Below are positions 13,772 to 25,701 of a stretch of DNA of 25,701 bases, one piece after another. Made by a program: the position numbers and the translations under genes. Each line of letters starts with the position of its first letter. Within the stretch, counting starts at the first letter, position 1. The stretch spans positions 1 through 25,701 of IMG/VR virus record IMGVR_UViG_3300003691_000045. One strand, 5' to 3'. A model generated the notes under the pieces. It saw nothing but the letters and a program-made list of their open reading frames with translations, searched no databases and had not been told where the DNA came from. This DNA is from a virus.

Positions 13772-14252
13772 TTAATATGTTTTAAATGTTTGAGAGGCGT
13801 AATGGGCAATCAATAATGCATCACTTCTTCCATCCAGTAATCCACCCTTCGGGCCATAGATTCCTGCTTTTGGATAAAGTCTATCGCAGATACCTGCAAC
13901 ATCCTTTTTGATGAGTTTACCTTTTGCTTTTACGCCTACATGTTTTTGCCATTTTTTTGGCGTGACCTTTTCAACAGAAACACCCGCAGCCATAGCTACA
14001 GTATTTACAACACCAGTATTATATCCAAAGTTGAAATTAGATTTAGCAGATGTACCAAATATTGCATGGACATCTTCCACCATAATTACAGCTAGTTCGA
14101 GTTCACTTTTGATTTGCTCAAACCATTTGATTAATTCTACTGGGTTTAATGTAGTTGGTTGGAATGCTATCTGTTTACTTTTTGGAACTAAGAGACAAAA
14201 TGCTCCCTTAGCTCCGGGAGTCTATCCCGACAAAGGCTATTGGTTTAGTCAT
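13772..14252 (-). CDS. ruvC-like: RuvC-like Holliday-junction resolvase, interrupted by a +1 frameshift
   Basis: Resolves branched DNA formed in phage replication and recombination; a phage-type RuvC of the RNase H fold. It starts at ATG 14252 behind a strong AAAGGAGG (14265-14272). The first frame reads MTKPIAFVGID and then SRS-stop. Dropping one base (the T after GAC, around 14219) restores PGAKGAFCLLV and the frame stays open to 13772. All acidic sites are then present: D11 in GIDPG, E in MVEDV and D in GRSDALLIAH. Total length is 160 codons plus one base, i.e. a 159-residue protein, normal for the family. So a single extra base separates the first catalytic Asp from the rest. It may be a mutation, a sequencing error or programmed +1 frameshifting. 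The gene lies directly downstream of an HNH endonuclease insertion. Confidence 0.85.
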
Positions 14253-14260
14253 GAGGGGCT

Positions 14261-14875
14261 TTAACCTCCTTTACCACTCTGCGTAATCACAAAACCTTTA
14301 TAAGGTTTTATGTTACTGTTTTTAATTCTGCGCTCCAACGCTGCAGCTATACATTTTGGTTTTGTGGTAGTAAATTTACTTATGTATTCTGCTGCCTTTC
14401 TTATAGAGGGAAAAATAAGTTCCCCATTTAATAGTACGCGCATAGCATTAGAGTGCCCATCTAAATATTGGCGTAAAGTATTTTCTGCCCTAGTGACCCA
14501 CTCGCAATTATCTGGAGAATAATTTCCATTAATTTGTTTACGGTCAATAGTTAAATTTTCTGTATACCCATTACATAAAGCCCATCGCTCGAATACCACA
14601 AATTCATCCCATTCACTGCATATACTGATACCTCTATCTTTATATGATTTACATGCCTTGTGATTACCTAAACAACGGTCCCGCATACCAGACCATATAT
14701 TATATATACGGGTATGTGACTTACCGTGCTTTCTTAGTTTTGTGATTGTACAGCCTTCCTCTTGACAGGCAGTAGCAGGGGTGTCACCCCTAAGTATAGT
14801 AGTGTTTCCACATCCACATAGGAAAGTGTAATAACCTTTACGCTTTTTTGAGTATTGAAATTTTAATTTTTGCAT
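14261..14875 (-). CDS. HNH homing-type endonuclease, 204 aa
   Basis: A free-standing HNH endonuclease of the phage mobile kind. The N-terminus has a zinc ribbon (C20, C22, C37, C42). The middle carries the typical run HTRIYNIWSGMRDRC, RGISICSEW and LTIDRKQINGNYSPDNCEW (D111, N119, N123), i.e. the HNH core. The C-terminus has a helix-turn-helix-like DNA-binding segment (SIRKAAEYIS, about residues 157-166). It sits between ssb and ruvC. A remnant of the original ruvC start lies just upstream and a new ruvC start just downstream, so this gene and its flanks form the inserted cassette. The ATG follows a 12-bp hairpin that would hide its ribosome site. Confidence 0.93.
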   Translation of the reverse strand: MQKLKFQYSKKRKGYYTFLCGCGNTTILRGDTPATACQEEGCTITKLRKHGKSHTRIYNIWSGMRDRCLGNHKACKSYKDRGISICSEWDEFVVFERWALCNGYTENLTIDRKQINGNYSPDNCEWVTRAENTLRQYLDGHSNAMRVLLNGELIFPSIRKAAEYISKFTTTKPKCIAAALERRIKNSNIKPYKGFVITQSGKGG

Positions 14876-14876
14876 T

Positions 14877-14910
14877 TACTGTACCTATTTAAATAAACAT
14901 AGGTACAGTA
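14877..14910 (-). promoter_or_regulatory. Hairpin sequestering the HNH gene ribosome-binding site
   Basis: ATAGGTACAGTA (14899-14910 on +) and TACTGTACCTAT (14877-14888) are perfect 12-bp complements around a 10-nt loop. On the transcribed strand the 3' arm holds the only Shine-Dalgarno-like AGG, 8 nt before the ATG at 14875. A folded mRNA would block initiation. No U-tract follows, so it is not an ordinary terminator. The layout recalls the RBS-hiding hairpins upstream of T4 homing endonuclease genes; function here is inferred. Confidence 0.7.
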
Positions 14911-14923
14911 TAACACCTTACGG

Positions 14924-14962
14924 TTACTTTACAATGCCAACAAATGCCGTTGGCTTAGTCAT
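14924..14962 (-). pseudogene. Remnant of the original ruvC 5' end
   Basis: Directly after the ssb stop (TAGATG) there is a 12-codon frame MTKPTAFVGIVK. Its first ten residues match the start of the downstream ruvC (MTKPIAFVGID) at nine positions, and at DNA level 23 of 30 bases are shared, with six of the seven differences at third codon positions. It ends by running into unrelated sequence and a TAA. This is best read as the original ruvC start cut off by insertion of the HNH cassette. GCCAAC/GTTGGC (14936-14941/14949-14954) also form a 6-bp stem here. Confidence 0.85.
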
Positions 14963-22743: not shown

Positions 22744-22835
22744 TGATTTCTCCATTGAATAGGTTAAGTTAATTAAAATGAGTTCCCTTACAAAAGGTAT
22801 GAAGGGTAATACCACGACACTTACATGACCGATTT

Positions 22836-23269
22836 TACAAAGCCGGTAAATCTCCGGATATTCTTACTAGAATAGGGATGACTCCTTACGGGAGTCAGTC
22901 GGGTTGCATACCCCATGAGGGCCTACCGCACTCGGTTTCCTCAGTGCTGCTACTGCTCATGGCTGGAATTCCACCACTAGGGTCTTATGGAAATTCATCC
23001 CCGTTATATTTGACTATCACAACAGATAGCTCCAATATGCCTTAGAGGGAGAGTTTTATAAAAGGAATTCGCGGGGAGCATTCCACTCCCTCGTATTGTC
23101 TTATTTAACTAGGTCTTACTTTTCACAACGTGTACTTCTCTACGTTAACGCTACTTGGCTAGGACTTATTAGATACCAAACAATATATAGGTGCTCTTTA
23201 CGTGAGTTAGCCGACCAGTTTCATTCATGCCACTGGCAGGACACTAAAGAAGGAGTTATGAATCTCCTT
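22836..23269 (-). ncRNA. Long structured non-coding region between polymerase and primase genes
   Basis: No convincing gene in 22744-23301. Instead there are successive stems: CCGG (22843-22857), TATTCT/AGAATA (22859-22874), GACTCC/GGAGTC (22880-22896), CCATGAG/CTCATGG (22913-22962) with inner GCACT/AGTGC (22928-22947), and ATATT..CTATC/GATAG..AATAT (23006-23038). Then come GAGGGAG/CTCCCTC (23045-23092) with inner GGAAT/ATTCC (23064-23084), AACGT/ACGTT (23127-23146), CTTTA-GTG/CAC-TAAAG (23196-23249) with inner CCAGT/ACTGG (23215-23236), and AAGGAG/CTCCTT (23250-23269). The hairpin loop CGGGG (23072-23076) can pair with CCCCG (22999-23003), a pseudoknot. The region is more GC-rich than its neighbours. 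Strand assumed from gene direction; an origin of replication is an alternative. Confidence 0.6.
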
Positions 23270-23286
23270 TGAATTTTCCACAATAA

Positions 23287-23301
23287 CTGCACGGAGTGCA
23301 G
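23287..23301 (-). promoter_or_regulatory. Triloop hairpin at the end of the 63-aa gene
   Basis: On the + strand: CTGCAC-GGA-GTGCAG, a 6-bp stem with a GGA triloop, touching the stop of the gene at 23302. On the - strand the loop is TCC and TTATTGT follows, a poor U-tract for a terminator. N4 vRNAP early promoters are template-strand hairpins of 5-7 bp with a purine-centred triloop (GGA in promoter P2), so this is either a weak terminator or a promoter-like hairpin firing into the structured region. Confidence 0.45.
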
Positions 23302-23523: not shown

Positions 23524-24033
23524 TTAAAATGTCATAGATTCAATTCTGGTAATAGCAGCAAGTGCTTCTTCATTACCAGCTAACATAACCTGCTTAGTTA
23601 CGTTTGCAAGCTCAGCTTTTATTTTCTCAGCACGGTCAAAATTAACTTGGTAGCGAAAGTAGCAATGTACGCTATCATTATTATTTAAGGTATTATCTAC
23701 CCTCACAATCTTAGCATTTCTATAATTATCTATACTAATAGTTGGTGCAAGTTTAACAGCCATTTTTTCATAAGGTTTATTGGCCTTATCCATATCAAAA
23801 AAATGTGATATTTTTAAGTTATCTGGTTGCACTTCATTCAATTGACCGTCTAACTTTTTTAAGACAGGTAATGAACGTGACAAGATTCGCTTTTTTATTT
23901 CTTCCACGGGCATAGATTTTGCCGCAAAGTAAGCATCTAATTGCGCTGCATCTTCTTTTTCTATTACTTTCATTTTTTCTGACAGTGACGTATATATTAC
24001 TGCTACTGCAAATTTTCTTTGTGTTGCATTCAT
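23524..24033 (-). CDS. Unknown phage protein, 169 aa, coupled to DNA polymerase
   Basis: Start ATG 24033 overlaps the polymerase stop (ATGA, 24030-24033) and is preceded by GAGGAAAAG, so it is translated with the polymerase. The N-terminal ~65 residues are helical (Ala/Lys/Glu-rich, including YTSLSEKMKVIEKEDAAQLD). A beta-rich middle follows, with repeated hydrophobic strands (KMAVKLAPTISI, NAKIVRVD, SVHCYFRYQV), and then a C-terminal helix pair. No catalytic motif is recognised. Its constant position behind the polymerase suggests an accessory role only. Confidence 0.78.
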   Translation of the reverse strand: MNATQRKFAVAVIYTSLSEKMKVIEKEDAAQLDAYFAAKSMPVEEIKKRILSRSLPVLKKLDGQLNEVQPDNLKISHFFDMDKANKPYEKMAVKLAPTISIDNYRNAKIVRVDNTLNNNDSVHCYFRYQVNFDRAEKIKAELANVTKQVMLAGNEEALAAITRIESMTF

Positions 24034-24740
24034 TTTGCTTTTCCTCTACAAATATCAAGTATTTGTTGTTCGGTTGAGTTGTTAGGAAGAAATGTTGCTT
24101 CGCTCCAATTAGGATAGAAGAGGTCAACTCCTCCTGAGAGTTTTACCGCGTTATGTTGTAGTTCTGGTAGCTTCTGCCATGCCATACAATCTGGCAAATT
24201 ATCGTTGAACCATTTGACTGTTTTTATCTCATCACGTACTACGAAATACATAGCATCGTGGATATGGGCAATTGGTTTAATGGCGTGAGCAAACTCAGAG
24301 GCTAATACACGCTTCTGGAACTCGATAGCTGCACGATTGTTTAATAGGCCATACGATTGTGATAATGCATTACCGGCTGTGCGTGATTCTGCTTGGGCCT
24401 CATATGGCGTAGATGCTTTATTAATTATAGTCTGCAAAAGAATTGGAGTTCTTATGCGTATGCCAAATGCACCGACCACATATCCTGTTTTACTTGCTTC
24501 AGTTAATTTATCTTGTGCCCACTGAGCAGATACTGTGTATGCAGTATGGTAATTATTTACTATAGTATTTGCCTCTGCCTTAGAAAAACCAGAATTCGCT
24601 ACTAAAGTATGTGCCGTCCCTTGATACTGAAGTGCGAAAGTACAGGCTTTCGAATCTTGGCGAAATATAGGATATAATTCAGGAATTTTATTTATAAAAT
24701 GTGCTTTATATTCCAAGTAAGTAACTTCTTCTATTTTCAT
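24030..24740 (-). CDS. DNA polymerase A, C-terminal fragment (motifs B and C)
   Basis: Second half of a split family A DNA polymerase. It holds motif B (R27-QDS-K31-ACTFALQY) of the fingers O-helix and motif C AHIHDAMYFVV with D162, the second metal-binding Asp of the palm. The usual VHDE is HDA here. It starts at ATG 24740, overlapping the HNH-AP2 stop by 4 nt (ATGA), with AGGA about 14 nt and GGA 6 nt upstream. It cannot polymerise without the motif A half encoded at 25228 and beyond. So the two must assemble as a two-subunit enzyme if the phage is viable. Frame differs from the first half, so a simple read-through fusion is not possible. Confidence 0.93.
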   Translation of the reverse strand: MKIEEVTYLEYKAHFINKIPELYPIFRQDSKACTFALQYQGTAHTLVANSGFSKAEANTIVNNYHTAYTVSAQWAQDKLTEASKTGYVVGAFGIRIRTPILLQTIINKASTPYEAQAESRTAGNALSQSYGLLNNRAAIEFQKRVLASEFAHAIKPIAHIHDAMYFVVRDEIKTVKWFNDNLPDCMAWQKLPELQHNAVKLSGGVDLFYPNWSEATFLPNNSTEQQILDICRGKAK

Positions 24741-25231
24741 TTTCCATGGTTCCTATGAAAGTCATATTTATTTTCTGCAAATTTTCTGGCATTAATTGCA
24801 TCTTGTTCACAAGTAAATGTACCTAAATCAATATGCTTACCTTTTACATAAATACGTGCCCGATATTTACCGCTGTCCCTGCGCCGTATACCGGCAATAC
24901 CAGAAGAGTTATTTTTATACTTTCTTTGGTTTTTACCATTCACACCATGAGTAACATCTCGTAAATTATTCCATTTGTTATTTTGGGTGTTGTGGTCTAT
25001 GTGGTCTACTTCCCCTTTAGGCATATGTCCTAGCATATATAAAAAAGCTAAACACTGTGCATCACGGTACTTACCTTTGCCTATGGATATTCGCACATAT
25101 CCCCCACGCGATTTGTCGGAACATCCGGCAATATCCCCTTTATGTACAGTCCTGTGGGTCAATAGGTGTGTGAATATACCTGTATTTGGGTTGTAATGTA
25201 ATTTTGCTTTTAATTCTGTTTGTGTAATCAT
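24737..25231 (-). CDS. HNH-AP2 homing-type endonuclease inserted in DNA polymerase, 164 aa
   Basis: A mobile endonuclease. The HNH core lies at about residues 74-92 (EVDHIDHNTQNNKWNNLR; H77, D79, H80, N81, N89). It is followed by an AP2-type DNA-binding domain (about 108-162: SGIAGIRRRDSGKYRARIYV, then the HIDLGTF strand and an AINARKFAE helix). The N-terminal ~70 residues are basic and beta-rich. It overlaps the polymerase first half by ATGA (25228-25231) and the second half by ATGA (24737-24740). AAAGG lies 8 nt before its ATG. The three genes therefore form one coupled set, and no non-coding flank remains that could hold a self-splicing intron. Confidence 0.95.
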   Translation of the reverse strand: MITQTELKAKLHYNPNTGIFTHLLTHRTVHKGDIAGCSDKSRGGYVRISIGKGKYRDAQCLAFLYMLGHMPKGEVDHIDHNTQNNKWNNLRDVTHGVNGKNQRKYKNNSSGIAGIRRRDSGKYRARIYVKGKHIDLGTFTCEQDAINARKFAENKYDFHRNHGK

Positions 25232-25701
25232 AGTAAACCTTTTTGTTTAAGTTCATCTTCTGTATGGTAGGAAATTTTCCCCAAATCAGAAGTTACTTTA
25301 TACAGTTTACTGCAATTTATTCCTAGGTCAATGGAATACTGAATATCTGGCATTTTATCTGGCCAATACGTATAAGTATTAAATGAATGACTGTCCATTC
25401 CTGCTATATACACACCCAATTTATTAGGGTCTTTTGTAGTCAGTGCATCTACTTTTGCCTCAAGTGCGTCAAAATCTGCACCTGCCATAAGCCATCCAGT
25501 AGGCGCTATAAAACACTCTTTAATGATTTTAGCGTAAGTACTACCGGACGGTATGTTTTGTAAATTGGGACCGGAACTAGATAGTCGTCCACTGACAGTC
25601 CCACCTAGATTAAAGCTACCATGTAGATACCAAATACCATCAGCTTTCAACACACTGTTGTTAATGAATGCTTCAATGAAGGTACTTAATATCTTGGATG
25701 C
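25228..25701 (-). CDS. DNA polymerase A, part containing motif A (5' end outside window)
   Basis: The frame is open to the window edge (157 residues visible), so the gene starts beyond 25701; the GTG at 25653 is internal. Present are TVSGRLSSSGPNLQNIP, the family A signature before the palm, and motif A ADFDALEAKV, with the first metal-binding Asp at nt 25474-25476. The frame then continues through HSFNTYTYWPDKMPDI to a TGA at 25228, where the HNH-AP2 gene starts. This is the N4 gp39-type replicative polymerase by context; the exonuclease domain, if any, lies outside the window. The break falls between motifs A and B. Confidence 0.93.
   Translation of the reverse strand, partial: ASKILSTFIEAFINNSVLKADGIWYLHGSFNLGGTVSGRLSSSGPNLQNIPSGSTYAKIIKECFIAPTGWLMAGADFDALEAKVDALTTKDPNKLGVYIAGMDSHSFNTYTYWPDKMPDIQYSIDLGINCSKLYKVTSDLGKISYHTEDELKQKGLL

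Follow-up and report, generated by a model that had tools for sequence, protein, structure and literature searches.

Does a phage DNA polymerase gene that is cut in two by an endonuclease gene still yield a working enzyme, and if so, as one chain or as two? The question is raised by the last 1.7 kb of a stretch of 25,701 nucleotides (hereafter, the window) that we analysed, positions 1 to 25,701 of IMG/VR record IMGVR_UViG_3300003691_000045. The phage is N4-like (Schitoviridae), as its 3514-aa virion RNA polymerase ORF matches phrog_2206 and the window carries the N4-type replication genes for a primase (phrog_2135), an exonuclease (phrog_2139) and an SSB (phrog_743). Among the proteins that make up the conserved core of the Schitoviridae is the DNA polymerase (PMC7650795). 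The window encodes a family A enzyme of the N4 gp39 type, with motifs A, B and C all present and divided over two chains.

ORF calling, Pfam and alignment bear out the preliminary description, which placed motif A and motifs B/C in separate genes with an HNH gene between them; all three genes lie on the minus strand. The upstream gene, pol-N (25228-25701), runs off the end of the window and is truncated at its 5' end. Its polymerase-homologous part (25342..25701) ends at MPDI, as judged by alignment with intact N4-like polymerases, matches positions 86-189 of the Pfam DNA_pol_A profile (E 5e-18) and contains motif A (GADFDALE, 25459..25482, located by alignment). It is followed by a C-terminal tail of 37 codons (QYSIDLGINCSKLYKVTSDLGKISYHTEDELKQKGLL, 25231..25341), which has no homology to intact polymerase, and by the stop codon TGA (25228-25230). 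The middle gene (24737..25231, phrog_99) had been described as HNH-AP2; the HNH part of this putative homing endonuclease stands (HNH_3, E 2e-10), while the AP2-like C-terminus gave only a sub-threshold match (E 0.02). The downstream gene, pol-C (24030-24740), opens with a head of nine codons (MKIEEVTYL, 24714..24740) resembling the head METIEEITQA of contig L045. Its polymerase-homologous part, stop codon included (24030..24713), matches positions 202-360 of DNA_pol_A (E 7e-14), is 41-53% identical to relatives, and contains motif B in the O helix (RQDSKACTFALQYQG, 24618..24662, located by alignment) and motif C, which reads IHDAMY and whose core IHDA (24252..24263) is invariant in the alignment. 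The two products fall end to end along the DNA polymerase A domain. ATGA overlaps join the HNH gene to pol-N (25228-25231) and to pol-C (24737-24740), at both junctions where they had been reported. Two open polymerase halves with conserved motifs and an endonuclease gene between them form the pattern of a gene split by a free-standing homing endonuclease.

A comparison with unbroken relatives, proposed in the preliminary description, revealed a length-preserving insertion of 628 nt. The sequence of intact relatives here is MPDI-EDTVESINSIx-ELYPxFRQDSK. In the window, MPDI is followed by the foreign 37-residue tail, and pol-C consists of the foreign MKIEEVTYL followed by EYKAHFINKIP-ELYPIFRQDSK. 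When MPDI is joined to EYK, the residue number of the intact relatives is kept exactly, with no net codon loss; the net insert calculated from tblastn pieces is also 628 nt. The break, previously said to fall between MPDI and the RQDSK O helix, thus lies exactly after MPDI, in a loop of the fingers, and the whole cassette of tail, HNH gene and head occupies 24714..25341. The further statement that the insert has no untranslated flank is correct, but a flank as such does exist, for the insert also holds the 37-codon tail and the 9-codon head. A reading of the tail as an exon repeat (INCSKLYK vs INSIAKLYK) was set aside, as the exact-length MPDI|EYK join explains the site and the L045 tail there is unrelated. 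We found no close unsplit relative of the window, the best polymerase matches being ~60% identical.

Two other places in the window deserve mention. A second HNH gene (14261-14875) lies inside a RuvC-like resolvase gene (13772-14960, minus strand), the start of which is duplicated: MTKPTAFVGI and a stop come before the HNH gene, and MTKPIAFVGID comes after it. Right where the catalytic Asp motif lies, the frame of this second copy is off by one base from that of the remainder (PGAKGAFCLLV...), and the resolvase gene is either broken or in need of a +1 shift. In addition, a stretch of ~540 bases (22763-23301), flanked by a DUF7873 gene and an ExoX-C-like ORF, has no coding-strand ORF of at least 60 aa and matches nothing in Rfam.

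Splits recur among N4-like polymerases. Our survey, by tblastn over IMG/VR and phage loci, yielded 160 distinct full-length N4-like polymerases, 127 of them unbroken. Numbered by phage SP076, the breaks cluster at a few sites, namely 485, 550, 586, 604 and 631, the last being that of the window. Site 631 is cut in 2 of the ~160 polymerases, those of the window and of L045; because this independent contig is split at the identical residue, the split in the window is not a chance event. The endonucleases at site 631 differ in HNH architecture (HNH_3-AP2 in the window, NUMOD4-HNH_3 in L045). The two heads are alike (IEEVT vs IEEIT; p 0.001 when the whole head, some exon residues included, is shuffled), and the similarity of the tails is not significant (shuffle p 0.16). 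The L045 polymerase has an in-frame stop inside motif B and may be a decaying gene. Site 604, in the loop preceding that of the window, carries HNH inserts of ~670-695 nt without a group I core in nine contigs, whereas the HNH inserts at sites 550 and 586 have group I core motifs.

The survey also brought up other irregularities in this gene. In a separate group of eight loci (L009, L022, L026, L029, L035, L039, L040 and L085) the break falls at residue ~485-497, in a loop that precedes the polymerase core. Varied genes, 272-1529 nt in all, separate the halves, and the tails (..NITEEEL stop) and heads (M..EAI..AK.LKALI) are similar within the group. Vibrio phages BUCT194 and PhiImVa-1 and an IMG/VR contig (L003, L014, L047) have an in-frame insert of ~66 residues just before motif A that is absent from other relatives and may be a healed scar left by a mobile element. 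The stop in the O helix of L045 belongs to an in-frame insertion (L045:5100-5125, TFLL-[AGG TAA CTT]-TYGG), and an insertion at the same point of L009 likewise includes a stop (L009:6090-6115, TFLL-[TAG CTA]-TYGG); only these two of the ~160 loci have such insertions. In both, the conserved TFLLTYGG would be regained if the ribosome hopped across the stop, from the Leu codon before it to the following one. No suppressor tRNA gene was recognised in the two contigs, although one tRNA in the L009 contig has no assigned anticodon.

The split at sister site 604 is found in cultured phages. Its tail is present in 19 records of isolated phages, including N4-species Escherichia phages (AlfredRasser, VEc25, Jura, PMBT57 and others), Pollock, SP5M, PD205 and Klebsiella phage Pylas. 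These phages, with AlfredRasser, VEc25, Jura and PMBT57 as Enquatrovirus members, have the same polymerase family and the same cassette plan (tail, HNH, head) as the window, and the site-604 members tested also lack a group I core. Unlike the window, they are cut one fingers loop further upstream, by ~27 residues (VY|GYDGH), and have a NUMOD4-HNH endonuclease and a different tail sequence; searches of cultured phages with the window's own tail gave no match. Because they are cultured and form plaques, phages with the sister-site split are viable. N4 has an intact gene, and AlfredRasser, of the same species, is 97.6% identical to it outside a net insert of 695 nt, so that the pair represents the empty and the filled site 604. 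AlfredRasser and Pollock share 83.7% identity over 1.19 kb spanning the cassette, and no other part of the gene was found in a near search. The match suggests that the cassette has moved horizontally, and together with the N4/AlfredRasser pair it gives indirect evidence of homing at the sister site.

Selection was measured on the tails and heads of site 604. The closest pairs of tails have pN/pS of 0.04/0.32, 0.10/0.65 and 0.13/0.76, and over the first 32 codons, a stretch that leaves out most of the HNH overlap, mean pN and pS are 0.31 and 0.64. Corresponding values for the heads are 0.04/0.34, 0.19/0.50 and 0.20/0.66. Judged by these substitution patterns, the site-604 tails are under protein-level selection, and both tails and heads of that site have been subject to selection since the split. 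Pfam has no family for tails or heads. An AF2 model of the N chain of Pylas predicts the tail (residues 609-643) as four strands and a helix with pLDDT of 66-81, and the palm/fingers part beside it has pLDDT < 50, as would be expected if this part needed the other chain. In L018, an unbroken relative modelled by AF2 (pLDDT 88, Klenow fold), both split sites fall in loops between fingers helices, site 604 between helices 617-624 and 629-641 and the site of the window between 629-641 and 649-653. From the site positions in this model, therefore, intron-type elements lie in conserved core motifs and non-intron ones in loops.

An insert of this kind could be a self-splicing intron, of group I or of an unknown type, in which case the mRNA would be rejoined and a normal single-chain polymerase made. 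The idea has precedent in the family. At sites 550 and 586, N4-like polymerase genes are interrupted by HNH-bearing group I introns, the authors of the JA-1 genome noted HNH genes splitting the DNA polymerase gene and guessed that they were introns (PMC3670811), the AlfredRasser gene was deposited as a joined, spliced-style CDS, and the HNH gene of PMBT57 is annotated as 'Phage intron'. Moreover, the borders in the window can be chosen such that a U precedes the insert and a G ends it, but L045 has A and T at the corresponding borders. Rfam scans of the window and the inserts returned no intron, though these scans are insensitive and missed evident group I introns (phi 1 and others). Since Rfam missed true introns, we built a covariance model (R1) on the 3' core of the group I introns of N4-like polymerases. 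R1, which is confined to the 3' core of the intron type seen in N4-like phages, scores the true introns at 58-128 bits, including one outside the training set (L085:276-411). It found nothing above noise at the split loci of sites 604 and 631, and a run over every position of the window's insert with filters off reached at most 6.5 bits. The motif GATAT[AG]GTC is present in 10/10 listed inserts at 550/586 and in 0/11 at 604/631, and the group I R/S core motifs (P7/P3 core) are absent from all 11 inserts at 604/631, window included. A P3/P4-like string in the tail (AATTGCAGTAAACTG) was rejected, having no 3' partner. The JA-1 guess thus agrees with R1 at sites 550 and 586 and disagrees with it at 604 and 631. 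The HNH ORF takes up all but ~135-150 nt of the insert, and the site-604 tails evolve as protein sequence. Taken together, an intron is unlikely. The preliminary description had reached the same opinion from the missing untranslated flank; its conclusion is borne out by the core tests, while the flank argument is weak, as the flanks hold non-exon sequence.

Alternatively, the polymerase gene may have been inactivated, with the phage relying on another polymerase, either from a second gene of its own or from the host. The window is a 25.7-kb fragment with a truncated pol-N, which deviates before the break from otherwise conserved residues (GMDSHSFNT vs GYDGHSLRA), and L045 and L009 have in-frame stops in motif B. 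Against this, both frames in the window are open and every polymerase motif is kept, the protein belongs to the conserved core of the Schitoviridae as cited above, and cultured phages with the sister split form plaques. A second polymerase A gene was sought in the L045 and Pylas genomes, and only the two halves of one gene were found. We regard inactivation as improbable. Even more doubtful is protein trans-splicing, by which tail and head would act as a very small split intein and rejoin the halves of a 'fractured gene'. The gene order of N half, endonuclease and C half does match fractured genes, and the C chain at site 604 resumes with S or T in most cases; at the window's site, however, the C-exon begins with Glu, and the first tail position lacks Cys or Ser in most members. 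The tails measure 37-50 and the heads 9-29 residues, and known split-intein halves are far longer. Even with the cut-off relaxed to E 10, Pfam searches of tails and heads matched neither an intein nor a Hint family, and an in-frame intein is excluded because 628 nt is not a multiple of three. Trans-splicing is accordingly very improbable.

The best-supported reading of the locus is gene fission by an endonuclease followed by two-chain assembly, and a two-chain polymerase produced by an intron-less homing cassette, with halves that join non-covalently, appears likely to us. A free-standing HNH homing endonuclease cassette would have entered a surface loop in the fingers of the N4-like family A polymerase and split the gene. 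Along with the endonuclease, the cassette has an in-frame tail whose stop codon ends the N-terminal chain and a head whose start codon begins the C-terminal chain. One unspliced message would carry the three genes, and their overlapping stop and start codons would couple their translation. The two polymerase chains would then fold together non-covalently into one active enzyme, an assembly that tail and head probably aid.

The phenomenon is already known in principle, from NrdA of Aeromonas phage Aeh1 and from T4-like gp43. The Aeh1 chains NrdA-a and NrdA-b reportedly carry element-derived extensions that mediate their assembly. The HNH gene mobE was inserted into nrdA without an intron, in a functionally critical region, and the split product is fully functional (PMC2988022). 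Like the window, this is an intron-less HNH insertion giving two chains, but it concerns ribonucleotide reductase in a T4-like phage, whereas in the window the split gene belongs to an N4-like phage, encodes a family A DNA polymerase and has ATGA overlaps. Closer in function are gp43A and gp43B of Aeromonas phages 25 and 44RR, a replicative polymerase in two chains; in phage 25 the pair copurifies and shows activity in this two-chain form (PMC2988022). This polymerase is of family B, its halves are separated by a seg-type GIY-YIG endonuclease gene or an untranslated spacer, and the endonuclease may not be what caused the split. The group I introns at sites 550 and 586 of Schitoviridae polymerase genes (phi 1, JA-1 and others) share with the window the gene and an HNH-encoding mobile element, but differ in their clear ribozyme core, in their non-coding flanks and in lying inside conserved core motifs rather than loops.

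Tentatively, we propose that these inserts may form a class of cassettes, neither intron nor intein, that carry their own protein repair kit (a small folding tail for the upstream half and a head for the downstream one), by which a single homing event would make a replicative polymerase two-chained while the phage survives. Neighbouring fingers loops of N4-like polymerases may have received such cassettes on more than one occasion, the endonucleases being interchangeable. They would represent a third way, beside introns and inteins, for a selfish gene to reside inside an essential gene, in which the host protein tolerates the cut. N4 and AlfredRasser offer an empty and a filled site within one species growing on E. 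coli K-12, where splicing, assembly and the role of the tail are directly testable. The natural cut between motifs A and B would also make such a polymerase a ready-made split enzyme.
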